Shown here piece by piece: positions 14,402 through 41,584 of a DNA stretch of 64,000 bases (position 1 is the stretch's first letter; each line of letters starts with the position of its first letter). Position numbers and translations under genes: made by a program. The notes under the pieces were generated by a model that saw nothing but the letters and a program-made list of their open reading frames with translations, did no database searches and was not told where the DNA came from. The DNA is from Nostoc sp. TCL240-02 (lineage in GTDB: Bacteria; Cyanobacteriota; Cyanobacteriia; Cyanobacteriales; Nostocaceae). The stretch covers positions 1,798,501-1,862,500 of the forward strand of contig NZ_CP040094.1 of NCBI RefSeq assembly GCF_013343235.1, in the 5' to 3' direction.

Positions 14402-15178
14402 ATGACAGCAAGACTAATAGTTGATCCTTGGATTAGCTGCCCTCAGCTTAATCCAAAGGCCCAACTTCGCTTATTCTGTTTTCCATGTGCGGGGGGTACA
14501 ACTTCAACATATAGTACATGGACAAACAAATTACCAAAGGATGTAGAGGTTTACTTAGTTCAACTTCCTGGAAGAGGCCGTCGATTGCAAGAACCTTCCT
14601 ATACCAATTTTTTACCTCTTATTCAAACTTTGGCATCAAAAATTAGACCGTATCTGAATATGCCATTTGCTTTTTTTGGCCATAGCATGGGTGCAACGCT
14701 TGGCTTTGAGATAACGCGTCTACTCCGTCAAGAATATAATCTTAGCCCTGTTCATTTATTTGCTGCTTGTTGCCCTGCTCCCCAAAAACCAATTCTCAAA
14801 CCGTTTATTCACAAAATGCCTGAGGCTAAATTCCTGGCGGAACTTTGCGATCGTTACAATGCAATTCCCAATGCGATTTTGCAGAATGAACAAATGTTGC
14901 AACTTTTCTTGCCTTGTCTGCGAGCGGACTTTACGATACTAGAGACATACATTTACAAAAGTGAAATGCCACTCGAATGCCCAATCTCTGTATTTGGAGG
15001 TTTGCAGGATAAAGCAATTAAGTTTGATGCTTTAGAAGCTTGGCGTGAGCAGACTAGTAGTTACTTAAACCTGCAAATGTTTCCTGGAGATCATTTCTTT
15101 TTACATAATTCTCAATCACTCTTTTTGCAGTCATTATCCCAACATTTACATTACCTAGTAGCTATCAACAACAATTAA
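14402..15178 (+). CDS. Type II thioesterase
   Basis: 258-residue alpha/beta hydrolase of the stand-alone thioesterase class that removes wrong or stalled acyl groups from PKS/NRPS carrier proteins. The N-terminus has the family pattern RLFCFPCAGGTTSTYSTW and VQLPGRGRR. The triad is visible: S95 in GHSMGA, D203 in GGLQDKAI and H231 in GDHFFLHN. It is the first gene of the plus-strand cluster and is followed by the MFS transporter. Since no thioesterase domain is fused to the downstream PKS/NRPS proteins, it might also take part in release, but editing is the default role. Confidence 0.92.
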   Translation: MTARLIVDPWISCPQLNPKAQLRLFCFPCAGGTTSTYSTWTNKLPKDVEVYLVQLPGRGRRLQEPSYTNFLPLIQTLASKIRPYLNMPFAFFGHSMGATLGFEITRLLRQEYNLSPVHLFAACCPAPQKPILKPFIHKMPEAKFLAELCDRYNAIPNAILQNEQMLQLFLPCLRADFTILETYIYKSEMPLECPISVFGGLQDKAIKFDALEAWREQTSSYLNLQMFPGDHFFLHNSQSLFLQSLSQHLHYLVAINNN

Positions 15179-15364
15179 GAATTTGAGATACAAATCTATA
15201 CTTTACTAAGTAGCTAAATTTATTTCAATAAAGTTCAAAAAATAATTTTATTGCAAAAAATGCTATTTCTATTTTGCATAGCTTTTTTGCGATAACAAGA
15301 TTGCGTGCATCGTATTTATACGATGCACTTAAACCACATAATTTATCAATTATCCTCAGGTTTT

Positions 15365-16534
15365 ATGACAGAATTGATCTCGAAAAAATCAAATTCCCCT
15401 TTTTCTACTGGATTACCAGCTTTGTATAGCATAGCTTTTTTGTCTGGTATTTCTATAGGGCTATTTAATCCCTTTATCTCAACATTAATGGCGCAACATC
15501 AAGTTGATGATTTATGGATAGGAGCAAATTCTACCGTGTATTTTCTAGTCATAGCTTTGGGAACACCGTTCGTAGTAAAAGTATTACCCAAGTTGGGGCT
15601 TCGTAAAACTATGATGCTTGGCTTGACAATGATGGGTATTAGCGCTCCTTTGTTCACTATGACTACATCAATGCCTTTGTGGTTTATTATACGTGCTGTT
15701 ATGGGCATTGCTTGTTGTTTATATCTAGTCAGCGGAAACACTGCATTAAATCACTTTTGTCATGAAGATAATCGAGGGATCGTCAATGGTTTGAATGCTC
15801 TAGCTTTTACTTTTGGATTTGGTATTGGCCCAGTAATTGGTTCTGCTTTCTATAATGTTTCACCAAAACTTTCCTTTTTGTTGGGTAGTGCTTTAATTTT
15901 TAGCGGTGTAATTGTGGTCTGGATAGCTCTACCAGATAAAACAGTTGTTTTTCAACAATCTTCACGTTCCGGAATTTTCAACAAGCTGAAACTTCCTCTT
16001 CAGGGCGCATTTGCCTATGGTTTTGCCGAATCAACGCTAGTTTCTTTATATCCGGTTTATCTGCTACGACAAAATTACAATATAGAGGAGATCGGCTATA
16101 CCTTTGCTGTATTTGTAGTTGGCGGCTTGCTCTCTACTGTTCCAGTTACTCACATAGCAGACAAATTCGGCAGACTCAAAGTTATTTTTATGAGTGTGTC
16201 TATCGTAATATTGTCGTTTTTATCTCTTTCATTGATTCAAGACTCCACTGCTACCCAGATATTTGCATTTATTGCTGGAGCTAGTATCAGTCCGATTTTT
16301 CCCTTAGCAATGGCATTAATTGGAGCAAAACTTTCTAGAAATGAACTATCTTCTGGAAGTGCTTTGTTCACAGCTATATATAGTTTCGGATGTACTACTG
16401 GGCCTATTGCTTCATCCTTAGCCATCAAACTTTTTGGTGATGGTTACATATTTAGCTTAGTTATAATCATCTTTGCCATATTTTTGTTTTATGTGGGCAG
16501 ACAGAATAAAAAAATTCCGTTCCGAAGTGCTTAA
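15365..16534 (+). CDS. MFS transporter (putative exporter)
   Basis: About 389 residues with roughly twelve hydrophobic segments. The loop between helices 2 and 3 (PKLGLRKTMMLG) and the matching one in the second half (ADKFGRLKVIFM) fit the MFS signature G-x3-D-R-x-G-R-R. I use the ATG at 15365 (MTELISKKS); in-frame GTG 15305 and ATG 15323 would add up to 20 residues of no clear use. Placed between the thioesterase and the lyase, it is a good candidate for export of the product or an intermediate, but the substrate is not readable from sequence. Confidence 0.85.
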   Translation: MTELISKKSNSPFSTGLPALYSIAFLSGISIGLFNPFISTLMAQHQVDDLWIGANSTVYFLVIALGTPFVVKVLPKLGLRKTMMLGLTMMGISAPLFTMTTSMPLWFIIRAVMGIACCLYLVSGNTALNHFCHEDNRGIVNGLNALAFTFGFGIGPVIGSAFYNVSPKLSFLLGSALIFSGVIVVWIALPDKTVVFQQSSRSGIFNKLKLPLQGAFAYGFAESTLVSLYPVYLLRQNYNIEEIGYTFAVFVVGGLLSTVPVTHIADKFGRLKVIFMSVSIVILSFLSLSLIQDSTATQIFAFIAGASISPIFPLAMALIGAKLSRNELSSGSALFTAIYSFGCTTGPIASSLAIKLFGDGYIFSLVIIIFAIFLFYVGRQNKKIPFRSA

Positions 16535-16777
16535 CTTGTCAATATCACTGGTGAAGAGGGAAGATTCGCTGGTACTAATGGCATATTATCCCTTTCTGGA
16601 AGCTTCATAGTTGATCTATAACCAAATGTTCCTAAGCCAACTCAGATTATAGTGAATGGCACTCTCGCTACCGTTCCAGAACCTAATACTTTAATAACGC
16701 TGATTAGTCTAGATATAGGTCGAGTAAGTGCTTTACTGAATCGGCGCTATAGGGAACAACATGAAAAAGTAAGTTAA
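16535..16777 (+). pseudogene. Remnant of a PEP-CTERM protein
   Basis: The frame reads TGEEGRFAGTNGILSLSGSF, a TAA, then NGTLATVPEPNTLITLISLD and RRYREQHEKVS before a stop at 16775-16777. The VPEP, a hydrophobic stretch and RR are the sorting signal of exosortase-processed cyanobacterial proteins, here degenerate and without a start. It lies directly after the MFS gene. Confidence 0.6.
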
Positions 16778-16929
16778 AGGTAAATAATAGCCTTTAGCAT
16801 AAAGTTACAGAAACAGAAAGTTAACCAAGTTCTTGCTACCTACTAATATCGAGTTACATAATTTTCGGATACGGCTTGATTTGATTGAGCTATGTTGTTA
16901 GGTATTTTCGAGTAAGAAAATATCTAAAT

Positions 16930-16980
16930 ATTTAAAATCTGTGAAAATCCTACTATATGAGCTTTTCACGGATTTTAAAT
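16930..16980. terminator. Long AU-rich hairpin
   Basis: ATTTAAAATCTGTGAAAA pairs with the downstream TTTTCACGGATTTTAAAT (one U-G pair), 18-bp stem with a 15-nt loop. May end transcription from the MFS side; it lacks a GC-rich stem and T-run, so the function is uncertain. Confidence 0.4.
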
Positions 16981-17006
16981 GTTTGTGCTGTTTGCACCAC
17001 GCTGTA

Positions 17007-17180
17007 TTAGTATTGTAGACACCGAAATAGGCGAAAGATATTCCACATAAGCAGAGCAAACACATCTAAGTACTCTTGATCACGACCAACATTAAGACCC
17101 AACGAAAAATCAGTATTTCTGGCTTGATTTATTTTCCAAGGCTCAAAGCGATCGATAAAATCTTCGTCAATAAGCAGGGA
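17007..17180 (-). pseudogene. Unrecognised C-terminal gene remnant
   Basis: An open stretch of 57 codons between stops, reading LIDEDFIDRFEPWKINQARN then TDFSLGLNVGRDQEYLDVFA and LLMWNIFRLFRCLQY. It has protein-like composition but no start codon. I do not recognise it; perhaps the end of a gene lost before or during cluster arrival. Confidence 0.35.
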
Positions 17181-17313
17181 TTAATGAGATTATTCTTGAG
17201 TCTATTGAGAATAGAGTAGTCTTATTGACATGACGCGGCCGCCCTGTCCACATAAGGCTTAATATATGCAATCACAGGTAAGTAAAATAAATAAAGTCAA
17301 ATTTATGGAATAG

Positions 17314-17343
17314 TTGCATAAATCTTTTACTTACTCCAGATAA
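17314..17343 (+). promoter_or_regulatory. Two-box cluster motif, copy 2 (upstream of the ammonia-lyase)
   Basis: TTGCATAAAT, 15 nt, GATAA, followed by ATATATAACAG. It lies 329 nt before the lyase ATG. Weaker in the trailing block than copies 1, 3 and 5, but spacing is exact. Confidence 0.5.
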
Positions 17344-17671
17344 ATATATAACAGTTCAATTACAGAACAAACGATTACAATTTTCATTATCTCATGTTGT
17401 AATTTCAAAACACAACAAACGGAATATCTATCATCAATATATGAGCAAAACAATTGAAAAAAATAGCTAATTTTTTTGGTTAACTTTTACGTGAACTTAT
17501 CCAAAAATTATTCTTGAAAGTTTCAATTATGGAGAATGACTGCTTCCTGAAAACACTGATGCCCGCTAAATATCAATTTGTATTTGCTGAAATGTTATGT
17601 CAAATACTCTCAGCAAAAAACAAAAGTTAAGTTAATTGCAATACCTACTACAAGTTAAACATAATCCCTGT

Positions 17672-19363
17672 ATGAAGACACTATCTCAAGCACAAAGCAA
17701 AACCTTATCTCAACAATTTTCTTTCACTGGAAATTCCTCCACCAATGTAATTATTGGTAATCAGAAACTCACAATCAATGATGTTGCAAGGGTAGCACGC
17801 AATGGCGCATTAGTGTCTTTAACCGATAACGCAGACGTTTTGCAGAATATTCACGCATCTTGTGATTACATTAATAATGCTGTTGAATCTGGGGAACCAA
17901 TTTACGGAGTAACATCTGGCTTTGGTGGTATGGCCAATGTTGCCATATCCCGTGAACAAGCATCTGAACTCCAAACCAACTTAGTTTGGTTCCTGAAAAC
18001 AGGTGCAGGTAACAAATTACCCTTGGCGGATGTGCGTGCAGCTATGCTCTTGCGTGCAAACTCTCACATGCACGGTGCATCTGGCATCAGGCTGGAACTT
18101 ATCAAGCGCATGGAAACTTTTCTCAACGCTGGTGTTACACCGTATGTGTATGAGTTTGGCTCAATTGGTGCAAGTGGTGATTTAGTGCCACTATCCTACA
18201 TTACTGGTTCACTGATAGGCTTAGATCCCAGTTTTAAGGTTGACTTCAACGGTAAAGAAATGGATGCGCCAACAGCTCTACGTCAACTGAATTTGTCACC
18301 CTTGACATTGTTGCCGAAGGAAGGCTTGGCGATGATGAACGGCACTTCAGTAATGACAGGTATTGCGGCAAACTGCGTCTACGATACTCAAATTTTAACT
18401 GCGATCGCTATGGGCGTTCACGCTCTAGATATCCAAGCTTTAAACGGAACCAATCAATCATTTCACCCATTTATCCATAATTCCAAACCACATCCTGGTC
18501 AATTATGGGCAGCAGATCAGATGATTTCTTTGCTAACAAATTCCCAGCTAGTCCGTGATGAGTTAGATGGTAAACACGATTATCGTGATCACGAATTAAT
18601 TCAGGACCGTTACTCACTCAGATGCCTTCCCCAGTATTTGGGGCCCATTGTTGATGGGATTTCCCAGATTGCCAAACAAATTGAAATCGAAATCAACTCA
18701 GTGACTGATAACCCACTGATTGATGTGAATAACCAAGCTAGCTATCATGGAGGCAATTTTCTCGGACAGTACGTAGGTATGGGAATGGATCACCTGCGTT
18801 ACTATATTGGGCTATTGGCTAAACACCTGGATGTGCAGATTGCCCTCCTCGCCTCACCGGAGTTTAGCAATGGACTACCACCATCTTTACTTGGCAACCG
18901 AGAACGTAAAGTCAATATGGGACTCAAAGGTCTGCAAATATGCGGTAACTCAATTATGCCACTGTTGACCTTCTATGGAAATTCCATCGCTGATCGCTTT
19001 CCTACCCATGCGGAACAATTTAATCAAAACATCAACAGTCAAGGATACACTTCAGCGACTCTAGCCCGCCGTTCTGTCGATATATTCCAGAATTATATGG
19101 CGATCGCTCTCATGTTTGGAGTCCAAGCTGTTGACCTCCGCACATATAAAAAGACTGGTCATTACGATGCACGTGTCTGTCTATCACCTGCAACTGAGCG
19201 GTTGTATTCAGCAGTCCGCCACGTAGTTGGACAAAAACCAACTTCAGATCGCCCATATATTTGGAATGATAATGAGCAAGGTCTGGATGAGCATATTGCC
19301 CGAATTTCTGCTGATATCGCGGCTGGTGGTTTGATTGTGAAAGCAGTTCAAGATATCTATTAA
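17672..19363 (+). CDS. Phenylalanine ammonia-lyase (AvPAL-type)
   Basis: Converts L-phenylalanine to trans-cinnamate and ammonia. I recognise the sequence as a close relative of the Anabaena variabilis PAL. The ATG at 17672 (MKTLSQAQSK) gives the same N-terminus and numbering. The MIO cofactor triad is A167-S168-G169 (GSIGASGDLVPLS). Y78 is present in GEPIYGVTSGFGG, and the selectivity pair is F107-L108, expected for Phe rather than Tyr or His. Length is 563 aa, four less than AvPAL as I remember it, since the C-terminus ends QDIY and lacks the last Cys-containing residues. It sits directly before a carboxylate-activating ligase and PKS genes, so its product is probably a polyketide starter. 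A 13-bp hairpin follows at 19383. Very sure of the enzyme class; the pathway role is inference. Confidence 0.96.
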   Translation: MKTLSQAQSKTLSQQFSFTGNSSTNVIIGNQKLTINDVARVARNGALVSLTDNADVLQNIHASCDYINNAVESGEPIYGVTSGFGGMANVAISREQASELQTNLVWFLKTGAGNKLPLADVRAAMLLRANSHMHGASGIRLELIKRMETFLNAGVTPYVYEFGSIGASGDLVPLSYITGSLIGLDPSFKVDFNGKEMDAPTALRQLNLSPLTLLPKEGLAMMNGTSVMTGIAANCVYDTQILTAIAMGVHALDIQALNGTNQSFHPFIHNSKPHPGQLWAADQMISLLTNSQLVRDELDGKHDYRDHELIQDRYSLRCLPQYLGPIVDGISQIAKQIEIEINSVTDNPLIDVNNQASYHGGNFLGQYVGMGMDHLRYYIGLLAKHLDVQIALLASPEFSNGLPPSLLGNRERKVNMGLKGLQICGNSIMPLLTFYGNSIADRFPTHAEQFNQNINSQGYTSATLARRSVDIFQNYMAIALMFGVQAVDLRTYKKTGHYDARVCLSPATERLYSAVRHVVGQKPTSDRPYIWNDNEQGLDEHIARISADIAAGGLIVKAVQDIY

Positions 19364-19382
19364 CAGTTATTAGTCAATAGTG

Positions 19383-19415
19383 AACAGTCGGCAGTCAATT
19401 GAACTGTTGACTGTT
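19383..19415 (+). terminator. Hairpin after the ammonia-lyase
   Basis: AACAGTCGGCAGT pairs with ACTGTTGACTGTT (two G-U pairs), 13-bp stem with a 7-nt loop, 20 nt after the lyase stop. Probably a terminator, which fits with a new promoter motif just after it at 19435. Confidence 0.6.
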
Positions 19416-19434
19416 TACTAATTTTATACACTTA

Positions 19435-19464
19435 TTGCATAAATTCTATACATCAAGGCGATAA
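19435..19464 (+). promoter_or_regulatory. Two-box cluster motif, copy 3 (upstream of the AMP-ligase)
   Basis: TTGCATAAAT, 15 nt ending ATCAAGGC, GATAA, then GTACAACAAGAGC. It ends 41 nt before the ligase ATG, the shortest distance of the set, as expected for a promoter. Nearly identical to copy 5 from ATCAAGGC to ACAAGAGC. Confidence 0.65.
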
Positions 19465-19504
19465 GTACAACAAGAGCTACAACTTAAATATTGCAACAAA
19501 TTTT

Positions 19505-21496
19505 ATGAATATTTCACAAAATGTGGAGCGTGGTTGCTGCCTTTTTCCTAACAAACCAGCGCTCATTTTTGAAGGCTTATATTTTACTTATAAACAACTG
19601 AATGAAATGGCAAATCGCTTTGCCAATGCTTTGCTGGGATTAGGGGTTGAGCGTGGCGATCGCATAGCATTATTATTACCAAACATTCCTGAATTTATCA
19701 TTTCCTATCTGGGGATTCTCAAGATTGGGGCGATCGCAGTTTCCATTAACCCAAGTCTGCAAAGTGATGAACTCAAGTTTATTCTCAATGACTGTGGAGC
19801 AGTTGTACTCGTAACCACAGAAACGCTGCGAGAAAAATTGCCCAAGCAGGATTTACCGCACCTCAAGCACATCTTAATTGCTGAGGGAAAAGCAACTGAC
19901 GCGATCGCATTGAGTGAATTCATGGCAAATGCTTCGTCTAGCGCTCGTGCTGTGGAGATGGAACGTGATGATCCGGCGGCGATTCTTTATACTTCTGGTA
20001 CAACAGGTTTCCCTAAAGGCGCGACTTTATCTCATGGCAATGTGATTTCTAATATGCACTCAATGAATCACTGTTGCGAAATGCGCCCTAACGATCAAAT
20101 TTTACTATTTTTACCGATGTTCCACTGTTTCGGGCAGAATGCAGTTCTCAATAGTGGACTTAATACCTGTGCAACTATCGTTTTACAGCGATCGTTCGAC
20201 CCAGAAACGGTACTGTCAACCATAAGCGAATATAATATTACAATCTTTTTTGGTGTTCCCACTACTTTTATTCTTTTATGCGATAAAGCATCTATCCGCG
20301 ATTTGGATTCAGTGCGTTACTACTTCTCTGCGGCCGCAGGTTTGCCTGTAGAAATTGCCAAACGTTGGCAAGACAAGTTTGGTAAAGTCATCAACCAAGG
20401 GTATGGTCTTACAGAAACATCACCATTAGCTAGTTATAACCACGAATTGAGGTACAAACTGGGTTCTATTGGTTCACCAATTGAGAATGTCGAGATGAAG
20501 ATTGTCAGCCTCGATGATGGTTGCGAAGTTGCCCCTGGTGAACTCGGCGAAATCGTTATTCGCGGTGTCAATGTCATGCTAGGTTACTGGAATCGCCCGG
20601 CTGAAACTGCCAAAGCCATGAAGAACGGATGGTTTCACACTGGTGACATTGGTCAAATAGATGAATTGGGCTACTTTTACATCGTTGACCGCCTCAAAGA
20701 TATGATCAACAACGGTGGATTAAAAGTATACCCAGCCGAAGTTGAAAATGTTATTTACCAGCATCCAGGTATTGCAGAGGTAGCTGTCTACGGTGTACCA
20801 GATTCAGTACTAGGTGAACAGGTGAAAGCTAGTGTTGTTCTTAAACCAGACCAAGTAGTTACAGAAGAAGAAATAATTGCCTTCTGTTACCAAAAACTGG
20901 CTAAATATAAAGTTCCTAGTGCCGTCGAACTTGTCTCCTCGATCCCCAAGAACCCGACTGGCAAAATACTCAAGCGGCTACTAAGGCAAGAAAATTCTGC
21001 TGCACCTTCCCATAGTACTGTGGTTAGCAAAACTCAGACATCTGCGTCGGTAAATGTCTCTTACCAAACTACCGAATTGATCGAAAACTGGATTATGGAT
21101 TGGGTCGTGAGAAAATTGGCAGTAGCAGCCCAGTCAGTCGACCAAAGTAAATCATTTGCTGATTATGGATTAGATTCCGTTAGGGCTGTCAAGTTAGCCC
21201 AAGAATTGAGTGAATGGTTGGGATATCCCTTAGAAGCAACTATAGTCTGGAACTTCTCTACCATCGAATCTTTAGCACGCCACCTAGCCAGTCAAAAAAT
21301 TCCCCAACTGACAGAATTAGCCAAGACAAAGCCAGAGTTTAATTTGCACACAGAAAGTCTGTTGGTGTCTGTAGAATTGCCTACAAATAAAGCAGAACTG
21401 ACCGAATCAACAGACTTAAAAGCACTCTCAGACGCAGAAATAGCTGAATTACTAACCAGAGAAATTGCCACAGTTAAACAAAAGAGATTAGTATGA
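19505..21496 (+). CDS. AMP-dependent acyl ligase fused to acyl carrier protein (PKS loading protein)
   Basis: 663 residues in two parts. Residues 1-500 are an acyl-adenylating enzyme: ILYTSGTTGFPKGATLSHGN (phosphate loop), YGLTETSPLA, GWFHTGDIGQIDELGYFY, and PKNPTGKILKR with the catalytic Lys. Residues about 520-600 are an ACP with DYGLDSVRAVK; S558 should carry the phosphopantetheine arm. The protein can therefore activate a carboxylic acid as AMP ester and load it onto its own ACP. With the ammonia-lyase next door, cinnamate is the obvious candidate. The stop overlaps the start of the next PKS by 4 nt (ATGA at 21493-21496), so translation is coupled and the two proteins likely hand over the acyl group. 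Substrate is inference. Confidence 0.9.
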   Translation: MNISQNVERGCCLFPNKPALIFEGLYFTYKQLNEMANRFANALLGLGVERGDRIALLLPNIPEFIISYLGILKIGAIAVSINPSLQSDELKFILNDCGAVVLVTTETLREKLPKQDLPHLKHILIAEGKATDAIALSEFMANASSSARAVEMERDDPAAILYTSGTTGFPKGATLSHGNVISNMHSMNHCCEMRPNDQILLFLPMFHCFGQNAVLNSGLNTCATIVLQRSFDPETVLSTISEYNITIFFGVPTTFILLCDKASIRDLDSVRYYFSAAAGLPVEIAKRWQDKFGKVINQGYGLTETSPLASYNHELRYKLGSIGSPIENVEMKIVSLDDGCEVAPGELGEIVIRGVNVMLGYWNRPAETAKAMKNGWFHTGDIGQIDELGYFYIVDRLKDMINNGGLKVYPAEVENVIYQHPGIAEVAVYGVPDSVLGEQVKASVVLKPDQVVTEEEIIAFCYQKLAKYKVPSAVELVSSIPKNPTGKILKRLLRQENSAAPSHSTVVSKTQTSASVNVSYQTTELIENWIMDWVVRKLAVAAQSVDQSKSFADYGLDSVRAVKLAQELSEWLGYPLEATIVWNFSTIESLARHLASQKIPQLTELAKTKPEFNLHTESLLVSVELPTNKAELTESTDLKALSDAEIAELLTREIATVKQKRLV

Positions 21497-24400
21497 TTCC
21501 TAATTCAGAGAATACAAATTATCGCTTGTTACTAGAAAATGCCATTTTAGAATTGCGGCGGATGCGGTCTGAAGTTGATACTGTTGAGCAATTACAGAAA
21601 GAACCCATCGCTATTATTGGGATGTCTTGCCGTTTACCTGGGGGTGTCAATAACCCAGAGGATTACTGGAATCTATTACATAATGGGGTAGATGCCATTA
21701 GCAAAATTCCTGCACAAAGATGGCCAGTAGATGAGTTTTATCATCCAGACCCCGATGTATTGGGGAAAATGTACACCCACCACGGCGGTTTTTTAAATGA
21801 GGTAGACAAGTTCGATGCTCAGTTCTTTGGCATCTCTCCCCGCGAAGCCGTCAGCCTCGACCCTCAACAGAGGCTACTTTTGGAAGTAAGCTGGGAAGCG
21901 CTAGAAAATGCTGGACAAGCAACAGAAAAGTTAAATGGCAGTCCTACAGGGGTATTCGTCGGGCTGTCTATGGATGACTACTCACAACTGAGCTTTTATG
22001 GCGATCGCACTCAAATTGATGCTTACAATACTTTAAGTGTTCTCAGAAGTATGGCAGCTGGGCGTTTGGCTTACGTCTTGGGTCTGCAAGGAGCTACCAT
22101 GCAGTTAGATACAGCTTGCTCGTCTTCGCTGTTAGGGGTGCATCTAGCTTGCCAAAGCCTGCGTTCTCAAGAATGTAATATGGCTTTAGCTGGCGGTGTC
22201 AACCTGATTCTCTCACCAGATCCTTCCATTGGTCTGTGTAAATTAAAAGCTTTATCTACTGATGGTCGCTGTAAAACTTTTGATGCCAGCGCCGATGGTT
22301 ACGGACGCGGAGAAGGATGTGGCATAGTAGTACTCAAACGTTTATCTGATGCTTTAGCTGATGGCGATCCTATCCTGGCATTGATTCGGGGTTCAGCATA
22401 CAACCATGATGGCTCTAGTAATGGTCTGACAGCCCCCAATGGTTCTGCTCAAGAAAAATTACTTCGCAAAGCCTTAGAAAATGCCAACGTCCAAGCCCAT
22501 CAGATTCAATATGTGGAAACTCACGGGACTGGTACACCTTTAGGCGATCCCATTGAGGTGTTAGCCTTGGGAGCAGTATTAGGTCAAGGTCGCTCCCAAG
22601 ACAATCCCCTAACTATCGGTTCTGTCAAAACTCAGGTGGGTCATTTGGAATCAGCCGCCGGAGTTGCTGGATTAATGAAAGTTGTATTAGCTCTCCAGCA
22701 CGCAGAGATACCACCACATTTACATTTTCAACAACCTAATCCCTATATTCCTTGGGAAAAACTGCCGGTTGTGGTTCCGACTCAGCCCACCAAGTGGCCA
22801 TTAGGGGCAGATGGACGACGACTAGCTGGGGTCAGTTCCTTTGGCATGAGTGGTACAAATGTCCATCTGATTTTGGAAGCAGCACCAGATAACAATTCAA
22901 AATTGAAAATTGAAAATTCAAAATTAATTGAGCGTCCGCTTCATCTTTTGAGTTTATCGGCGAAAACTGAATCAGCACTACATTCACTTGTCAGCCGCTA
23001 CGAATCCTTTTTGGCAGGTGATAGCAAAGCAAATCTAGCAGATATTTGTTTCAGCGCGAATACAGGGCGATCGCATTTTGACCATCGTTTTGCTGTTGTC
23101 GCTGAATCTACTCAAGACTTACGTCAACAATTGGCAGCTTTTACAGCAGGTAAAACCCCAGGTGTGAGCGGGCAATTACACAACAAAAAGCGCCCAAAAA
23201 TTGCTTTTCTCTTTACCGGACAGGGTTCTCAGTATATAGGTATGGGGCGAGAACTCTACGAAACCCAACCAACATTCCGGCAAACTTTAGATCGTTGTGA
23301 TGAAATTCTCCGTCCTTATTTAGAACAACCTTTACTGTCGGTTCTCTATCCTGAATCTGGGACTAGCCCTCTGAATGAGACCGCCTACACCCAACCAGCT
23401 TTATTTGCCCTAGAGTATGCAGTCTCCCAGTTATGGAAGTCTTGGGGCATAGAACCCACAGTAGTTATGGGGCATAGTTTGGGTGAGTATGTTGCCGCTT
23501 GTATAGCTGGAGTTTTTAGCCTGGAAGATGGACTAAAATTGGTTGCTGCCCGCGCTCGCCTCATGCAGTCATTACCTCAAGATGGGGCAATGGTCAATAT
23601 ATTCGCCTCAGAAGCGCGAGTATTGGCAGCTATTCAACCTTATGCCAATCAAGTATCGATTGCTGCCATTAACGGCCCGGAGAGTGTCGTTATTTCTGGA
23701 CAGCATCAAGCAGTCGCAGCAGCGATGTCTACTCTCCAAAGCGAAGGCGTTAATAGTGTCAAATTAAACGTTTCCCATGCCTTCCACTCTCCTTTAATGG
23801 AACCAGTGTTGGCGGAATTTGCGCGCATCGCCTCAGAAGTCAGCTTCTCATCACCTAATATCAAACTGATTTCTAATGTTACTGGCACAGTAGTGACTAC
23901 AGAAATCACCAATGCGGAATATTGGGTCAGACATTTGCGCCAGTCAGTGAGATTTGCTTCTGGGATGGAAACCCTTGAGCAGCAAGGTTGCGAAATTTTT
24001 CTAGAGGTCGGGCCAAAACCAATTTTACTGGAAATGGGTCGTAAGTGTCTCCCCGAAGGAGTAGGAGTGTGGCTCCCTAGTTTGCGCCCTGGACAGTCGG
24101 ATTGGCAACAGCTACTTCAAAGCTTACAGGAATTATACTTACGTGGGGCATCAATCAACTGGTCGGGCTTTGATCGAGATTATCCCCGTCGTCGCCTAGT
24201 ACTGCCAAATTATCCCTTCCAGCGCCAGCGTTACTGGGTTGAGACATCCCATCGCCAACAGACTTTACCCGCCAAGGCTAGCAAAATTCTCCATCCTGTA
24301 CTCGGTCAACGGCTAAAATTACCCTTTTCTCCAGAAATTCGCTTTGAAACCCAATTTAGCCCCAATTCGCCTGCTTACCTAGAGGATCATCAATTAAACG

Positions 24401-27150
24401 AAGTCAAAATTGTTCCTGGTGCATCTTATATCTCGATGCTTCTATCCGCAGTTAAGGAGGTTTTCCCCAATGAATCTTGCATCATCGAAGATTTGTTGTT
24501 TCAAAATACGCTGGTTTGCCCAGATGACGGTAGTACAACAGTTCAGTTAGTTTTGACACCCCAAACAACAGAAGAGACTTCCTTTCAAATTATTAGTTTT
24601 TTAGGTGGAGAAGCAGAAAACGAGGTTAACTCTTGGAAAACACACGGCACAGGAAAAGTCCGGCTGTTCTCGCCAGTACCCAATTTCGTAGATGTGGCAG
24701 AAGTCAAGGCTAGATGTTCTCAAGTTTTATCGGGAACGCAATTTTACTCTAGTTTTCAAGCAGTTGGCTACAGTTGGGGAACTTCATTTCAATGGCTAGA
24801 AAATATTTGGCATCAGGATGGAGAAGCTGTATGTCAAATGAAACTACCCCAATTACCAGACGAACTCGATAACTATCAACTTTATCCGGGATTAATTGAT
24901 TCATGCTTGCAACTACTCAACGTTTGCTGGGATGTTAATCCTGCCGAGCAAGTCCAGAATGACTATATGTACATTCCCTTTAGCATCGGTAGCTTTAGAT
25001 TCTATGGTCGTTCCCATCCTGGTCATCAACTATGGTGTCATGGTCAGAAAACACCAACATCTAATCAGCAAAGCTTAATTGGTGACGTACATCTGTTCGA
25101 CCAAAATGGGCAGTTAATCGCCGAAATCATCGGTTTTGAAGTGAGGAAAGTTCGTCGGGCAACTCTGCTGCAAAGTCTGCAAAAAGATTTAGGTGATTGG
25201 CTCTATGAAGTAGCTTGGCAATCAAAGCCTCGTGAGCAAAATCATCAGTTGGCACAGTCACAAGAGTTAGGAAGTTGGCTGATATTTGCTGATAACCAAG
25301 GAACAGCGGTTAAGTTGGCAAAACTACTCCAAGAACGTGGCGATCGCACTATCTTAGTTTCTCCTGGTGCCGAATATCAAGCCGATGCAGAACATTACTA
25401 CATCAATCCCTCAGAACCACAAGATTTTCAGAGGTTAATTCAAGCAAGCTTAGGTAATAACCAACCTCCTTGCCGTGGGGTAGTATACCTGTGGGGGCTG
25501 GAGCATGAAAGCATTGTTGATTTCCAAGATACCCAGGTTACTGGCTGTGGTTATGTGCTGCATTTGGTTCAAGCCTTAGCAAAATCAACTTGGTCTAAGT
25601 ATCCTCGTCTGTGGTTAGTTACCAGAGGAAGCCAGCCAGTAGAGCCAATGTCCGATTCCTTAGCCATAACTCAGGCTGCTTTGTGGGGCTTGGGACGTGT
25701 TATTCCCTTGGAACATCCAGAATTATCATGTGTGCGGTTGGATTTAGACCCAGTTGGTAATGGGAACGAAGTTGAAGAATTATTAGCAGAGTTGTGCTTC
25801 CCAGACCAAGAAGACGAAGTGGCATTTCGTCAAGGAGTGCGGAAAGTCTCCCGGTTGGTGCGTCGCCAAGCTCAAACCCCGGCGAATCAACTTGCAGTTG
25901 GTGAAGATGGGACTTATTTGATTACAGGTGGTTTAGGGGCGCTAGGGCTGCAAGTTGCCCAGTGGATAGTAGCACAAGGAGCCAAAAACTTAGTTTTAAC
26001 TAGCAGGCGCGGAGTAGTTGGTGATACTCAAGTAGCTATCAATCAACTACAGCAAGCAGGGGCAAAAGTTCTAGTTGTCACAGCAGATGTGTCCAACACG
26101 GAAGATGTGGCTCAGATGTTAGAGGCAATCAAAGCCAGCTATCCACCTCTACGGGGTATTTTTCACGCGGCTGGTGTTTTAGATGACGGGGTATTACTGC
26201 AACAAAATTGGAGCCGCTTCGCGAAAGTGCTTGCTCCCAAGGTGCAAGGGGCATGGAATCTGCACACATTGACCAAAGACCTACCTTTAGATTTCTTTGT
26301 CTGCTTCTCCTCGGTCGCCTCATTACTTGGTTCACCCAGCCAAGGAAACTATGCAGCCGCTAATGCCTTCATGGATGCTTTAGTTCATTATCGTCGAGGT
26401 TTGGGTTTGCCAGGTTTGAGCATTAACTGGGGGCCTTGGGCAGAAGCAGGGATGGCAGCAGATTTAGACAGTCGTAGCCAACAGCGAATAGCTGAGAGTG
26501 GTTTTGCTACCATGTCCTCAGAATTGGGATTGCAACTACTGGGAGATTTATTGAGACAAGATGCCACCCAAGTTGGTGTGATGTCAGTCAATTGGGAAAA
26601 ATTCCTCCAGCAATTCCCACCAGGAGGCGCAGCACCTTTAATTGCTGATTTAGCTCCCCAAACCCAGCCACAAGGCAATTCTGCACAATCAGGCAAACAA
26701 CTTGAACTTCTGCGTCAATTAGAGGAAACTATTGCTAGCGATGGGCTGCGCCCCGCCATAGGCGATCGCCAGAATGTTTTAATTGCTTACATTCAAAGTG
26801 AGGTTGCCCAAGTTCTCAGGTTTGAAGCATCTGATCAACCAAATCCGCAACAGGGCTTTTTCGATATGGGGATGGACTCTCTCATGTCCATCGAGTTGAA
26901 GAACCGACTAGAAACCAGCTTAGGAAATTCTCTACCTTCGACTTTGACCTTTGAATATCCCACAATTGAATCCTTGGCTGAATATCTGCTCAACAATGTA
27001 ATTTCCTTGAATGTAGCAGAGCCAGTTGTGGTGGAGCCGCAAATAGAGACTGAAGTGCAAACTAATTTGTTAATAGATATTCAGCAGTATTCTGAAGACG
27101 AATTAGCAGCATTAGTTGACCAAGAATTAGAGGCTTTGCTTGGTGTCTGA
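21493..27150 (+). CDS. Type I PKS, one module: KS-AT-DH-KR-ACP
   Basis: 1885 residues. N-terminal docking helix (about 1-35), KS from about 37 with C209 (DTACSSSL), H344 ([10 protein letters not shown]) and H384 (GHLESAAG). AT with GQGSQY, S662 (GHSLGEY) and HAFH at 762-765, the pattern of malonyl-CoA selection. DH with H966 in [13 protein letters not shown] (the usual Gly of the HxxxGxxxxP motif is Glu) and a matching LIDSCLQ. KR with TGGLGALG at about 1477 and Y1620 (NYAAANAF); the AAGVLDDG segment suggests a B-type KR. ACP with S1796 ([10 protein letters not shown]). No ER. One round should give an unsaturated two-carbon extension. A short acidic tail (about 1850-1885) may be a docking element for the next PKS. 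Confidence 0.93.
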
Positions 27151-27291: not shown

Positions 27292-30200
27292 ATGAGTAAC
27301 ACTTCAGACATCAACCAATTATCTCCATTACAACGTTCAGTTTTAGCCTTAAAAGAAATGCGTGCCAAGTTGGACGCAGTGGAGAACGCTAAGACAGAAC
27401 CAATCGCCATTATTGGGATGAACTGTCGCTTTCCTGGGGGAGCCGACTACCCTGAGAAATTCTGGGAATTACTCCACAATGGGGTAGACACTATCACTGA
27501 AGTTCCGGCTGACAGATGGGACGTGGATGAGTATTACAATGCAAATCCCAACACTCTGGGGAAAATTTACACCCGCTATGGTGGGTTTATTAAACAGGTA
27601 GATCAATTTGATCCTCATTTCTTTGGACTTTCCCCTCTAGAAGCAGCCAGCATGGATCCCCAACATCGGCTACTGCTGGAGGTAGGCTGGGAAGCCATCG
27701 AAAACGCCGGACAATCCCCAGAGGAATTAAACGGCAGCCAGACGGGAGTCTTTATGGGACTCTTTATGGAAGATTATTCCCGATTTAACCTATATTCCGG
27801 CGATCATAACCGCATTGATGCCTACAGCAGTTTAGGAAATGCTCGGAGTATTGCCATTGGTCGCCTAGCTTATGTCCTCGGCTTGCAAGGCCCTGTGATG
27901 CAGTTAGACACGGCTTGTTCTTCTTCGTTGCTAGCAGTTCACCTGGCTTGTCAGAGCTTGCGTTCAGGAGAGTGCAATATGGCTTTAGCTGGTGGAGTCA
28001 ACTTGATTTTAGCACCGGAAGCCTCTATTGGTCTGAGTAGAATGAGGGCGCTGGCTCCAGACGGTCGTTGTAAGACCTTTGATGCCAAAGCTGATGGTTA
28101 TGTACGTGGAGAAGGCTGCGGCATAGTCGTACTCAAGCGTTTATCGGATGCGATCGCTAACAATGATAATATTTTGGCTGTGGTGCGAGGCTCGGCAGTT
28201 AATCACGACGGTGCTAGCAGTGGTCTGACAGTACCGAATGGGCTAGCTCAAGAGAAATTGATTAATCAAGCACTCACCAACGCTAAGGTAGCGCCAGAAC
28301 AGATTAGTTATGTAGAAACCCACGGTACAGGCACATCTTTGGGAGATCCTATTGAAGTGAGAGCTTTAGGCTCAGTGTTGTGTCAAGGACGTTCTCCAGA
28401 GCAACCATTGCTGATTGGTTCCGTGAAAACTCAGTTGGGTCATTTAGAATCAGCTGCGGGAGTTGCCAGTTTAATGAAAGTGGTGCTGGCTCTACAAAAC
28501 GCAGAGATACCGCCACATCTGCATTTACAACAACCCAGTCCTCATATTCCTTGGGACAAACTTGCGGTTGCTGTGCCAACTAAGCCAACTCCATGGCCGG
28601 CAGTCAACGGGAAACGCTTGGCTGGGGTTAGTTCCTTTGGTATGAGTGGCACTAATGCCCATCTGATTATTGAAGAAGCACCAAAATTGAAATTAGAGCC
28701 GCCGAAAACTGAGCGTCCACTTCACCTGCTGAGTTTATCGGCCAAAACTGAGGCCGCACTACTGGCAATGGCTAGTAGCTATGAATCTTTTTTAACATCC
28801 CATCCAGAAACATCTTTAGCAGATATTTGTTTTACAGCTAACACCGGGCGATCGCATTTTGAACACCGTCTTGCTGTTGTCGCTGCATCTAACGCAGGCT
28901 TGCGCGAACAACTAACAGCTTTTGCTAGCCAAAAGCAGACCAGCACGTTAGTCAGTGGTCAAGCACAGAAGAAGCGTTCCAAAGTAGTGTTCATGTTTAC
29001 AGGGCAAGGTTCTCAGTATGTGGAAATGGGACGGCAACTTTACGAAACCCAGCCGACATTCCGTAAGACTTTAGACCGATGCGACGAAATTCTGCGTCCC
29101 TATCTTCAGCAACCTTTGTTGTCAGTACTTTACCCCACATCTGATGTTACTTCCCTCTTGAATGAAACAGCATATACTCAACCAGCACTGTTTGCTTTAG
29201 AGTACTCCCTAGCTGAACTGTGGAAATCTTGGGGAATTGTACCAGATGCAGTTATGGGTCATAGCGTGGGTGAATATGTAGCCGCTTGCGTTGCGGGAGT
29301 GTTCAGCTTGGAAGATGGGCTGAAATTAATCGCCGAGCGGGGGCGTTTAATTCAATTTCTACCCCAAAATGGGATGATGGCGGCAGTTTTCACCAATGAA
29401 GCACGGATAAACGGCATTTTAGCTGCTTACACTGGGCAAGTGGCAATTGCCGGGATTAATGGCCCAGAAAATATCGTTATTTCTGGAGCCAGAGAAGTTG
29501 TCCAATTCGTGCTGAAAGAATTGGCAACTCAAGGAATTAACGCCCAACCATTGCAGGTTTCTCAAGCTTTCCACTCCCCTTTAATGGCTAGCATCCTCGA
29601 TCCCTTTGAGCAGATAGCTAGCTCGGTGCAGTTTCAAGCGCCGCGTATTCCCCTAATCTCGAATTTGACTGGACAAATACTTAAATACCAAGAAATTCCC
29701 AATGCAACTTACTGGCGACAGCATCTGAGAGAAGGAGTAAGATTTTATGCCGGCATCAAGACGCTACATGAACAAGGGTATGAAATCTTTGTAGAAATGG
29801 GGCCGAGTACCACATTAGTAGGCATGGGTAAAAGATGCTTGCCAGAAGGTACAGGCACTTGGCTAACTTCTCTGAAAAAAGGACAACCGGACTGGTCACA
29901 ATTGCTTGTTAGTTTAAGTGAGTTGTACATCAGGGGTATAAAAATCAATTGGACTGCATTTGACCAAGGTTATCAGCGTCGCCGCCTAGCACTACCAACC
30001 TACCCATTTCAACGCCAACGCTATTGGGTGGAAAACCTAACGCGAAACCTAACCCCCCAGCCCCCTTCCCTACCAGGGAATGGGGAGAATTCAAAGCCTC
30101 TCTCCTGCAAGGAGAGAGGTTTGCTAAATCCCGTAACAAGCCAGAAGCCAAAAATTCCGCTTTCTGTACCATCGAATTGGTTTCATAGTTGGCAATGGAC

Positions 30201-33200
30201 TCCAGAGGTGTCAAGCCAATCTCAAGATATTCCTTCAGGGGCAATTTTGATCTTTAGCGATCGCCACCAAATAGGGGAAAATTTAGAAAAGCTATTCGAC
30301 TCTAAAAAGTACACGACATATTTTGTCACCCCAGGGGAGAGCTTCAAGCAAACAGCACAACATTTCACTATTAATCCGGCATCCGTTGAAGACTACGAAC
30401 AGCTAATTAAAAATATCAAAGCAGTCGGTGTTACAGTCACAGCAGCCGTGCATCTGTGGAACTATAGTTTGTGGGCAACATCCCCAGAACAATTACTAGA
30501 AAATAACCGCCTGCTCAATGAACGCGTTTACAGTCTTTTGTTTTTGACACAGGCTTTAGTCAAACATTACCCAGCCTCTCCCCTCAATTTCTTAGTGGTA
30601 ACTCAAAGTGCTTATCCAATATCTCCAAATGATTCCCTACACGGTGTACATCAATCTATGGCAGGTGTACTGGCACAGGTGGTGGCACAAGAAAATCCTC
30701 AGATTAAAGCAAAAGTCGTAGATTTTAACCAAGATGTTTATCTGCCTGAAAAATTAGCCGATATTTTGTTCCAGGAAATGAAAGCAGCCCCTACTGGTGA
30801 AGGTATCGTTGCTATCCGTCATGGTCAACGGTTGAGCCGTACCCTGGAAAAAATTAATGTCCCCACAGATAACGACGCTCTACCTTTGTCGGCAGGAGAA
30901 ACCTGGTTGATTACTGGTGGTACCAGTGCTGTCGGGACAGAAATAGCCTTAGCTTTGGTTCGACAAGTACCCATCAATTTGGTGCTAACAGGTCGCCATC
31001 CCCTCCCCCCCAAACAAGAATGGCAATCCGCTAGTCATGATTCCTCAACCCAGCAACGTATCCAGGCAATTCAGCAACTAGAGCAACTCGGAGCCACAGT
31101 TATGTATCAGGCTGTGGATATAACGGATGCCTTGGGGATGAAGCAATTAATTGAGAACATCAAGTCCCGCTTTGGTAATCTGGATGGAGTCATCCATGCG
31201 GCGGGTGCAGTTGACCACAGCACATTTAAACTACTACAAAAACAACCTGCCTCAGTCACCAAAGTTTTAGCCCCGAAAGTCCAGGGAACCATCATCCTCG
31301 ATGCTGTTACCCGTAATGAACCTCTAAAATACTTTGTGTTGTTATCCTCGGTTTCCGCTTCCAAAGCCGAATGGGGAATCGGCATGGGCGATTATGCCGC
31401 AGCCAATACTTTTCTCGATAGTTATGCCATCTACCGGACACAGCATGGCGGTCAAGGACGCTCTTTGGCTCTGAATTATTCTCTGTGGAGCGATCGCGGT
31501 ATGGGCGCTCTTTTAGGAGCATCAACTTTATTAATGGTAAAATCCAAAGGTTTAAATCCTCTGGAACCAGAGCCGGCTGCTAATGCCTTTATTCAGGCTC
31601 TATCTTTGGATGCTTCTGGTGTAATTCACATCATTGACTTGATTGCTCAAGCCACCCCAGAAATAGCACAAAAATCCTCCACGAGCCAACCACAAACTAA
31701 ATCTCGCAATCTGCGACAGCTTGTCCGAGAAGTTTTACTGCAACATTTACGTATTCCGGAAGCACAGGTGGAAGGACACAAAACTTTCCCAGAAATGGGG
31801 TTAGATTCTGTTGGGACTGTAGAAGTTGTCCAACATTTAGGGACAACTCTGGGTGAGGAATTATTTCCGACTTTACTGTTTGAATATCAAACACCAGATG
31901 ACCTGGTAGATTATTTACAAAGCAAGTACGGTTATTCTGTTAAGGCTAGCACGAGCGCGATCGCTCCTGAAGAAACATCTAGCCCGGAAGCCGAAAAATC
32001 AGCGCCCCCAAATGTCGCTACCCAGGAAAAATACCAAGACGTTCCTGAACAAGACATTGCTATCATCGGCATGGCTTGTAAAATACCAGGCGCTAATAAC
32101 TTAGAGCAGTACTGGGATTTACTCAATGCAGGCCGCTCTGTCATTCAAGATGTGCCTCAAGACCGTTGGTTCAACCAACACTACTTTGAAGCCAAAAGAA
32201 ACTCTCCGCAAGCAAAAATATCCAAACGTGGATGCTTTGTAGATAATCCCTTCGACTTTGATCCGATGTTCTTTGGCATCTCTCCCAAGGAAGCTACGGC
32301 GATGGATCCACAACAAAGGTTGTTCCTAGAGCTTTCTATGCAGGCTCTACAACAAGCAGGCTACGGCGGCAAATATCGCCCAGATAATATCGGCGTGTTT
32401 GTTGGGTGTGGACAGAATACCTACATCGAACACTTCACCAATTATCAGTATTACGAGGAATTACGTCAGCGTTTGCAAGAGAGTTCCTGGTTTGATCACC
32501 TTCCTGTTGAAGATCGTCAGCATTTGCTCAAGACCCTCTCCCAAGTACTGCAACCAAGTGAAATTCTCCCTGAGTCAGCAGCAGGTAACGAGGTCAACGA
32601 ATTAGCGGCACGAGTTAGCCATTGCCTGAACCTCAAGGGGCCAAGTATGGCAGTTAGCACTGCTTGTTCTTCTTCATTGGTGGCATTACATATTGCTTGC
32701 GAAAGTCTACGTTCCGGTCAAACTGGCATGGCGATCGTCGGTGGGGTAAATTTAAATCTCAGTCCTAGTCCCTTTACTTTTTTACGTAAGGCACAGGCTC
32801 TTTCCCTCAGTGGAACCTGCTATCCCTTTGACCGCCGTGCCAACGGCATCGTTTTAGGAGAAGGTGCAGGTGTATTAATTATCAAACCTTTAAAACAGGC
32901 TTTGGCTGACGGGGATTTGATTCATGCTGTAATTAAAGGTTCCGCAGTGAATAATGATGGTCATTCTCAAGGGATAACCGCTCCCAATCCTAAAGGTCAA
33001 GCAGAAGCCATCCGCCAAGCTTACAACAGTTGTGGCGTAGATCCCCGGACTATCTCCTACATTGAAACCCACGGTACAGGTACTCTCCTGGGCGATCCAG
33101 TAGAAGTAGAAGGGATGACACAAGCTTTCCGTAGCTTTACTGATGAAAAGGGATTCTGTACCATTGGTTCGGTTAAATCCTCCATTGGTCATTTGCTGTC

Positions 33201-35151: not shown

Positions 35152-35304
35152 TTAACATAACAAGAGCAAAGATTAATTTTTCTCGTAATTCTTATCCATT
35201 CAAATTTAGTTTTGTATGAATAACTAGACTTCAAAACAATACTTACTTAATTAGGTAAGACGTTGGACATTTTTATTGCGAATATTATTTTTTTAGAGGA
35301 TGCA

Positions 35305-38300
35305 ATGAGTACTAAGAGCTTAGAATTGCCTATTTTCTCCCTAGTTGCCAAAATTACTGGACATGATGCAGAAGAATTAGAACGAGATATGTTTTTAGAG
35401 GGTAACTTAGGATTAGATTCCATCAAAATGATGGAACTATTGAATGGATTAGTAGCACTAATTCCCCAAGAAATGCAACCCATTTTTATGGAAGCATTGC
35501 CTTTGCAAAATTTGATGCAATTGCAAACTTTGGGTGATGTCGTACAAATAGCTGATAAATGCTTAGTTTCCCAAATAAATAATTCAGATTCTTCGCCATC
35601 TGCAAGTATTATCAATCAAAAGGAGCAGAAAACAGAGAAGGTTGAGATTCTTTCTGGGCAATATTTTCATTTACTCGGTCATTGGGTAGTAAATTCAATT
35701 AGCTTATTTTCTACTCTACGTTTACGAGGTAATTTTGATTCAAACGTTGCTTGGCAGTCTTGGAAAGACTTGCTGAATCGTCATCCTATGCTGCGATCAC
35801 GCTTTATCATTCCTCCTAATACTACCAGATTCAAGGATTACGAAATGGTAGTTATGGAAAACCCCACTCCTCCTGATATACCCGTTACTGACATCAGGCA
35901 TCTTCATAGTGAGGCTCAAGAACAACTAATTAATGATGAATTGCATCGCTGCCTCAATTATGAATGGCAAATGACAGAGTGGCCACTACATCGATTTTTT
36001 GTTTTTCGGCTGGAAGATTCAGTCTATCAACTGGTATTAGCCAACGAGCATCTCATTTCTGATGCCCTGGGATGTCATGTCATCTTACGCGAATTTATGG
36101 AAATCTACCGAGCTCATGTCTGCGGTGAAGAACCTAATTTGCATCCACCTACAACTGTTCAAGATTACAGCGAATTGGTGCAATCAATTAATGCTTGGCA
36201 AGACCCAGAAGAAGACAAAGCACTGGTCGAGTATGTAAATCGACGAGGCAAAGATTCTTATTTATGGAATCCCACAGGAAATGCCATCACATCCCTGTGT
36301 CCAAAATTCCATAACCGCAGATTTTCCTTAGGAAAGGCTATCACTAATCAACTCATTGCCCAAACTCGTGAATGGCGATTACCACTGAACTCTCTCCTAG
36401 TGGGTGCGTTTGTGCGGGCTGTTGCCAAATTTGAGAAGTCTAAAAACGAACCGATTATGGTTCAAGTTCCCACCAGTGGACGGGTTTATCCAGGCATAGA
36501 TGCTTCTGATGTGGTGGGTAGTTTTGCTCAGAATTTGTCTATTAGCCTAGACTTACCAGCACTGAATGAAGATTGGCAACGCTTGTTAAACCGCGTTCAT
36601 CAGGAAATCCAACAAGGGTTAGTTAACGGTTATGACCGCGCCCAAACTCGTCAAATGGCGATCGCTTTCCGAGATAATATTGTTTTAGAAGATGGCAAAA
36701 TCCCTGAGCGGATGTTACCCATGTATCGCCGCATACTGAAATCAAATTTATACTGTCCATTTACAGGACAGACTAATATTAAAAACAAATATGGCCCCAT
36801 AGATGTAATCGATTATCGCGCAGGTGGTATTAATGCTGCGGGAACAATTGATATATTGCAAGAAATATTTGACGACAGTTTACATTTGTTCGCTAGCTAC
36901 GATAGTAACTTTTTCCCTGAGTTTGTTATCGATGAATTGATGCATGAATATATTACCCAAATCAAAGAATTAGCCTCACTAAAAATCCCATCTCAGCAAC
37001 TAACGCAGCCACTGCTCAAGACACAAACAGATGTAAATATAGTGCAGCTTTTGCAAGAAATCGCCACAGAAATCTGCCATTCTCAGATTACTGACAATGA
37101 TATGGCTAAGGATTTGGAAGCAGAATTGGGAATGGATTCTTTGGAACTCATCCGCATTGTTACGAGGTTAGAAAAACGGTTAGGCAAAGTAAATCGTCAA
37201 GCCTTGCTTTCTTGTCGCAGTCTCCAAGAAATGGCTGTGCTACTTGGGAATAAACAATCATCTTCTTTACAAAACCAATCAGTTGTCAACAATCAACAAC
37301 CCCAAGAAATTCCTTACTGGGAAATTATCGAGCAAGCCAAGCGTACTCCCAATGCCATAGCGGTGACGGATGGGGAAACTCAAATTACCTACGCAGAGTT
37401 GAACCGTCTTTCCAATCAGGTGGCTAATTATTTGCAGGCTCAGGGAGTTAAACCAGGCGTGTTTGTGGGGATCATGACACGACGTGGGCCTTTGATGTTC
37501 GTGGGTATTCTCGGTATTCTCAAAGCAGGCGGGACTTACGTTCCTTTAGATCCTATATATCCCCATGAACGGATTAAGTACATACTAGAACACGCTGAAA
37601 TTGGAATTTTGCTCACAGAAAATCGCTTGACAAACAAGTTAGCAGTATGCCTGACTGAGCAGTTACCTTTAAATACTTTGATGTTCTTAGATGAGGGTAT
37701 TTTTGAGAAAGGTAAAGCTTGGACACAGTTAAACAAAAAGACTTGGGCGCGTTGTTCAGACATAGCTCCTGCCAATGTTAGTACTCCTGATGACTTGATG
37801 ACAGTACTGTACACCTCTGGTTCTACAGGTAAACCTAAAGGAGTGATGCTCAACCATCGGGGTTACATGAATCGCCTGGTTTGGATGCAGAATGCTTTTC
37901 AATTGCGTTATGGCGATCGCGTTGCTCAAAAAACATCTTGCTGTTTTGATATATCAGTATGGGAAATATTCTGGCCTTTGATGGTGGGAGCTACTGTTTA
38001 TTCTGTGGAAACAGAAACAGTCAAAAATCCTTGGCTTTTAGCACAGTGGATTAAAGATAACCAAATCAATGTCATGCACTTTGTTCCTTCCCTATTTGGA
38101 GAATTTTGTAACGCTTTAGAATCAGAATCATGGATTTTTCCCGATTTGCGTTGGTTAGTCTTTAGTGGCGAAGCTTTACCTGTACCTTTTGTACAGCGTT
38201 GGATTGATAAGTATGGCATGAGTGTTGGTTTAGCCAATCTTTATGGCCCCACTGAAGCTTCCATCGATGTCACCGCACACATTATTCGTCAACGTCCAGG

Positions 38301-41555: not shown

Positions 41556-41584
41556 GTAGAGACATAGTATTGCAACGTCTCTAC
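41556..41584. repeat. GTAGAGAC inverted repeat
   Basis: GTAGAGAC and GTCTCTAC are separated by 13 nt, a common cyanobacterial intergenic repeat between the PEP-CTERM gene and the next. A related pair is at 58716-58750. Confidence 0.55.

Follow-up and report, generated by a model that had tools for sequence, protein, structure and literature searches.

What does a phenylalanine ammonia-lyase (PAL) closely resembling the widely used enzyme AvPAL supply when it lies directly upstream of a polyketide synthase (PKS)? This question is raised by a 64,000-nt stretch of Nostoc sp. TCL240-02 DNA (the window; its own genome is labelled G000 in the comparison set), in which an initial annotation of the segment 17672..27150 had predicted a cinnamoyl-primed polyketide, possibly extended with a serine-like residue. 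Our analysis indicates that the biosynthetic unit is larger than that segment, spanning about 14402-46148, with a thioesterase and an MFS protein added upstream and the genes from a second PKS to a 126-aa protein added downstream, and that it is, taken as a whole, probably a cinnamoyl-primed cluster of PKS and nonribosomal peptide synthetase (NRPS) proteins.

The PAL gene (17672..19363, + strand; 563 aa counted from the ATG) matches the Pfam aromatic amino acid lyase family, and its product carries the MIO motif IGASGDL with the Ala-Ser-Gly triad. Its selectivity positions, read directly, are the Phe-type F107-L108 that had been noted, not the Tyr-type Y-H. The best PDB matches were 2nyn and 3czo, whose entry titles name a phenylalanine/histidine ammonia-lyase and which we take to be AvPAL. 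Supportively, the PAL of genome G242 (7.1 Mb, 5 contigs) is identical to 2nyn across 562 aligned residues, differing only at the three MIO-forming residues, and 546 of the 563 residues of the window PAL are identical to that of G242, in agreement with the closeness to AvPAL claimed at first. The cluster in G242 is the same as that of the window, with 91-100% identity per domain or protein when a cross-match between two AT domains is set aside. That a window-type cluster surrounds AvPAL in a genome encoding it suggests what the role of this enzyme in nature may be. By its MIO triad, its identity to AvPAL and its Phe-type residues, the window protein is thus predicted, from its sequence, to be an AvPAL-type PAL. 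AvPAL, the source of the phenylketonuria drug pegvaliase, ranks among the most widely used PALs, and to our knowledge little work seems to have addressed what it does in its own host.

The genes following PAL on the + strand encode the predicted assembly line. An acyl-CoA ligase fused to an ACP (19505..21496; Pfam AMP-binding, AMP-binding_C and PP-binding; ACP motif DYGLDSVRA), which its matches, with no fatty acyl-AMP ligase (FAAL) model among the best 25 of 109 NCBIfam families, and the ligase tree place in the CoA-ligase type, overlaps with its stop the start of the first PKS, as first reported, the shared ATGA lying at 21493-21496 (4 bases). Pfam and motifs indicated that this first protein, PKS1 (21493..27150), has the order KS-AT-DH-KR-ACP with a malonyl-type AT and a KR of the LDD type. 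The AT motif is HAFH, the malonyl-type signature, and QAFH in the second AT of the window; the DH motifs are present, the HxxxGxxxxP motif having Glu in place of Gly in the window and Gly in G242. PKS2 (27292..34938; Pfam and sequence reading) is KS-AT-KR-ACP-KS followed by a degenerate AT (AT0), which lacks the GHSxG serine in both PAL-linked and FAAL-linked lines, while the last KS, 5′ of it, retains Cys-His-His. The PKS2 C-terminus (window ~34650-34938) also carries three near-identical short repeats, SPLTDSQRQSSY. In the NRPS (35302..40236; ACP-C-PCP-A-C) two C, one A and one PP-binding domain were found by Pfam; its N-terminal ACP (GNLGLDSIKM), like the degenerate AT of PKS2, was read from the sequence and is kept across relatives. 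The A-domain code residues are D-I-W-H-V-S-L-I-D, which by our mapping lie close to the serine code, so that the serine-like residue of the initial annotation was borne out, and the A-domain motifs are nearly identical among relatives. The terminal C-like domain carries HHIIGDL, with its best PDB matches in the PvdL, bacitracin and tyrocidine synthetases. With an aryl acid source, an activating enzyme with its carrier protein and a downstream KS-AT, the unit has the parts expected of a putative aryl-acid-primed modular PKS.

A comparison of gene order around PAL, proposed in the initial annotation, was made in 217 genomes of the window's family (Nostocaceae), counting PAL relatives at E <= 1e-150. 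Such relatives were found at 44 places in 35 genomes, and in 11 of the 217 the PAL adjoins a ligase-ACP and a PKS in the order PAL, ligase-ACP, PKS1 (G000, G060, G022, G063, G064, G242, G094:C60, G025, G062, G216 and G219, the last treated as locus L055). Because this order is kept in 11 genomes, among which the large proteins of the cluster are down to 63-69% identical, it is not due to chance. In six close relatives (G242, G060, G022, G063, G064 and G094:C60) nearly all proteins of the unit were recovered at 79-100% identity. In a set of 80 named loci, kept from 123 PAL relatives found, a KS of >50% identity lies <=6 kb from PAL in 7 (L052-L055, L057, L076 and L123); L123 is a Myxococcales metagenome-assembled genome (MAG), so the PAL/ligase/PKS order is present in a second phylum.

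The PAL tree was built without matches <=480 aa and exact copies, and without 14 further rows, of which nine were distant and five were duplicates, near-duplicates or truncated. F107-L108 occurs in all 11 PKS-linked rows of this set, and the 16 furanolide-labelled rows comprise nine with Y-H, six with F-L and one with H-L. Ten cyanobacterial PKS-linked rows fall within one supported group of 13, alongside L056, L160 (whose PAL has NpPAL, 2nyf, as its closest PDB entry) and L070, where they make up two supported clades, the way these join being left unresolved by the tree; the eleventh PKS-linked row, L123, sits elsewhere in both the PAL and the ligase tree.

At the other 33 of the 44 places no ligase-ACP and PKS were found directly downstream of PAL. 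The initial annotation had held that PAL without an adjacent PKS in related genomes would refute its prediction; the situation does occur, but the test was badly chosen, since 23 of these 33 places are furanolide-type clusters with downstream enzymes of their own, namely a thiamine pyrophosphate (TPP) enzyme and a KAS III-like gene of >40% identity to furanolide probes (L186-L190, L192, L194-L197, L199, L200, L202-L208, L210, G094:C15, G016:C36 and G159). Of the rest, three have more distant TPP and KAS III-like genes (G163:C74, G024:C265 and G030:C123), five carry a different pair of genes in their place (G073, G016:C3, G030:C60, G085 and G006) and two run into contig ends (G106 and G195). 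Nor do these places refute a PKS-linked function, because the cyanobacterial PKS-linked ligases form one supported clade and the PALs lie in the one supported group of 13. A third PAL-ligase context was also noticed at L061-L064, L069, L191, L209 and L211, where two other proteins (~228 and ~255 aa; acetyltransferase-like and helical by eye) replace the furanolide genes.

Cinnamate is put forward as the starter because PAL and ligase are adjacent or fused, because the PAL residues are Phe-type, and because lyase and ligase act in sequence in furanolide clusters. Among the 80 named loci, a ligase relative lies <=4 kb from PAL on the same strand in 51, and for 11 of the remaining 29 the available sequence stops no more than 3.3 kb from PAL. 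PAL and ligase form a single open reading frame (ORF) in L100 (1064 aa; 285-3479; a Thiomargarita MAG) and in L115 (1103 aa; 9857-13168; Enhygromyxa salina). The window ligase is 57-69% identical to ligases of furanolide-type loci in this set, and in the ligase tree (matches <=430 columns or <=48% identity excluded) the 11 cyanobacterial PKS-linked ligases make up one supported clade of their own. For furanolide clusters, one report describes a lyase giving coumarate and a ligase, CybC, giving coumaroyl-CoA (PMC12395478), and work on maculalactone gives cinnamoyl-CoA as a preferred substrate (PMC13288894). Cinnamate as the ligase substrate would fit this comparative evidence. The Phe-type PAL, the ligase-ACP and the adjacency and fusions thus lend the initially proposed cinnamoyl priming a comparative fit, with cinnamate still a predicted rather than an observed starter, and that proposal was likely right for both the starter and serine.

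Several observations weigh against this conclusion. The PDB scores of the ligase are higher for the fatty acyl-CoA synthetase 3r44 (320 bits) than for feruloyl-CoA synthetase (294) and plant 4CL (259), and therefore the ligase substrate is not fixed by sequence alone. In the ligase tree the PKS-linked ligases lie beside, not inside, the furanolide ligases, so that a shared substrate is not forced. Chain length and release are uncertain, given the unusual PCP-A order of the NRPS and the equally unusual inactive AT. Two genomes, G216 and G219, have PKS2 and NRPS on a different contig from the start of the line, and contiguity is accordingly seen there up to PKS1; the G219 NRPS, moreover, reads in two frames with one stop. 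Neither the DAHP synthase nor the thioesterase of the unit found a match in the compared stretches of G025 and G062.

The alternative that survives best is that the ligase loads another acid, such as benzoate, a fatty acid or a hydroxycinnamate, the cinnamate from PAL being first altered, for example to benzoate, or used elsewhere. We consider this unlikely. Besides the PDB score, the ligase passes the broad long-chain fatty acid-CoA ligase model of NCBIfam, and relatives of the same assembly line are FAAL-started; however, no cinnamate-shortening gene was recognised among the conserved cluster genes, and both the PAL-ligase fusions in two other lineages and the identity to ligases of furanolide-type loci argue for the cinnamate assignment. 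A PAL that stands outside the line, lying there by chance and serving general Phe degradation or a stress response, is very improbable: the 141 bases between PAL and ligase and the separate start of PAL would suit it, but not the preservation of the PAL, ligase-ACP, PKS1 order among relatives with such diverged large proteins, nor the adjacency and fusions of PAL and ligase. Slimmer still is the chance of a furanolide (cyanobacterin/maculalactone-type) cluster merely lying beside a PKS, for which the DAHP synthase-PAL-ligase core common to most furanolide-type loci seen (see also PMC13288894) would speak, but tblastn probes for the TPP enzyme (CybE-like) and the KAS III-like furanolide synthase (CybF-like) matched nothing in the window at E <= 1e-5 and nothing near PAL in L052, L053, L054 and L076, and the PKS-linked ligases cluster apart.

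Furanolide membership of the unit was rejected since those two defining genes are absent. The idea that PAL and ligase were captured together from a furanolide cluster nearby was likewise considered and rejected. The PAL tree is compatible with it, as L056 and L160, which are among the closest PALs without a PKS, are furanolide-type places that have a copy of the same NRPS ~11 kb away (the copy in G159 is FAAL-started; the L056 loader lies beyond the contig end), but the ligase tree speaks against it, the PKS-linked ligases being sister to the cyanobacterial ligases of the other loci. Separately, the window's own genome holds a second, broken PAL-ligase pair with Y-H (Tyr-type) residues (G000:C1:4305885-4308061; L212 8838-11077), the PAL being split over frames and the ligase cut short beside a transposase, which looks like a decayed furanolide locus. 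One insertion sequence is common to window 4040-5071 and L212 7857-8889, at the broken ligase (99.8% over 1033 bases). In L213 and L214 (G025 and G062), ligase-TPP-KAS III furanolide genes were seen without a full PAL alongside.

The origin of the cinnamoyl-primed line was approached through its NRPS, matches to which (E <= 1e-180) occur in 26 of the 217 genomes, more than have a PKS-linked PAL. Five NRPS-bearing genomes combine the shared KS-AT0 end with a FAAL-like loader (G016, G163, G190, G159 and G087); three of these loaders were called by NCBIfam FAAL models, below the curated cut-offs, that of G016 by its sequence and that of G190 by a weak ligase match only. A sixth KS-AT0 copy, G094:C15, starts at a contig end. 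An active-looking AT is kept in G014, G024, G068, G017, G245, G224 and a second copy in G242, and no FAAL was recognised in these active-AT copies. The second A-C protein of this AvPAL-encoding genome (G242:C1:892823-895771) is 57% identical and has PKS genes of its own. In a midpoint-rooted A-C2 tree of 22 rows (matches <=850 columns excluded), all 11 PAL-linked copies group in a single clade (100/99), to which three FAAL copies are nearest (90/94), the other FAAL copies falling outside. Since the PKS2-NRPS end is common to FAAL-started clusters, PAL and ligase-ACP look like a starter swap, and the window line appears to belong to a PKS-NRPS family of Nostocaceae in which the starter has been exchanged and whose closest other copies are FAAL-started. 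One replacement of the FAAL loader by PAL, ligase-ACP and PKS1 looks like the simplest story. The FAAL-started clusters might, as a guess, be of nostovalerolactone type; one review lists, as a hypothesis, a C8 starter loaded by a FAAL for nostovalerolactone (PMC11837247).

From the genes, domains, motifs and conservation observed we infer the substrates, the order of steps, release and export as follows. The AvPAL-type PAL would convert phenylalanine to cinnamate, with extra supply from the DAHP synthase of the cluster, and the ligase-ACP protein would activate cinnamate and load its own ACP. PKS1 would then add one C2 unit and reduce and dehydrate it, giving a 5-phenylpenta-2,4-dienoyl chain, to which PKS2 would add a 3-hydroxy unit; the last KS of PKS2, with its inactive AT, possibly adds a further, perhaps keto, unit on the N-terminal ACP of the NRPS. 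Serine would be joined by the NRPS, the product released by the terminal C-like domain or the type II thioesterase and exported by the MFS protein. More tentatively, and with clearly less confidence than in the cluster assignment itself, we propose that AvPAL natively primes a PKS-NRPS line, that the FAAL loader of an ancestral fatty-acyl-started pathway was replaced once by PAL, ligase-ACP and an added KS-AT-DH-KR module, and that the products may make up a new class, either phenyldienyl acyl-serines or kavalactone-like dihydropyranones.

The remaining genes of the unit also lie on the + strand. Upstream, the type II thioesterase (TE; 14402..15178; Pfam PF00975) is 87-98% identical in six relatives and 63-65% in two, and the predicted MFS exporter (15305..16534; PF07690) 86-98% in six and 60-64% in four. 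The intergenic region 5′ of PAL (16535..17671) is likely to be its promoter; blastn indicated that the PAL-proximal 426 bases are 92-96% kept in four close relatives and that the window's copy has ~195 additional bases at gap positions 517-712. Further upstream, a Rieske protein (10761-12164) and a 104-aa ORF at 12672 were excluded from the unit because they were unmatched in 12 of 12 compared relative stretches, which extend only a few kb upstream of the TE. Downstream of the NRPS lie an exported protein that is PEP-CTERM-like by its C-terminus as judged by eye (40525..41505), a DUF4386 membrane protein assigned by Pfam and comparison with relatives (41570..42343), an NAD(P)-binding protein resembling a short-chain dehydrogenase/reductase (SDR) or epimerase by weak Pfam matches below the cut-off (42400..43353), the DAHP synthase, a predicted feeder of the aromatic amino acid pathway (43752..44840; Pfam and NCBIfam; 91-99% in six relatives, 68-70% in two others), and a 126-aa protein of unassigned function that is recurrent in these clusters (45768..46148). 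No DUF4386 or SDR match was found in G060, where the PEP-CTERM-like match is only 46%. Two relatives of the PEP-CTERM-like protein match the PEP-CTERM model below its cut-off; its predicted structure has a mean pLDDT of 81, and a fold search against the PDB gave no match at E <= 0.001. This protein (the window copy and 21 aligned relatives) is found repeatedly next to members of the PKS-NRPS family, the second line of G242 being one such case.

The initial annotation knew of no bacterial product from this architecture. Our literature searches likewise found no described product or cluster of this kind, and no paper describing the genomic context of AvPAL or its product, within a coverage that did not extend to the primary papers on AvPAL discovery, cyanobacterin and nostovalerolactone, so that prior mention is possible. 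The cluster offers a testable answer on the natural role of AvPAL, and its predicted product could be sought in A. variabilis; it is also a natural example of fatty acid/cinnamate starter-unit exchange on one assembly line, which is useful for engineering.

Compared with known systems, the furanolide clusters (cyanobacterin cyb, maculalactone mac and nostoclide ncl) share the DAHP synthase, ammonia-lyase and CoA ligase families with the window but, unlike it, carry a TPP acyloin enzyme together with a furanolide synthase of the KAS III-like kind, and in none of the 23 furanolide-type places in Nostocaceae is PAL followed directly by a ligase-ACP and type I PKS. The FAAL-started clusters and the window both have KS-AT-KR-ACP-KS-AT0, ACP-C-PCP-A-C, the MFS protein and the PEP-CTERM-like protein, whereas the former start with a FAAL in place of PAL and a CoA ligase-ACP and showed no KS-AT-DH-KR protein. 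Other aryl-primed bacterial polyketides (crocacin, soraphen, enterocin and isopropylstilbene) resemble the window in placing a Phe-derived aryl acid starter on a PKS, and use other loaders and other assembly lines. Microcystin Adda, too, is drawn from cinnamate in a figure legend (PMC3252866). Cinnamate-primed bacterial polyketides are already known in kind, and what gives the present cluster its special value is that AvPAL has its native setting there.

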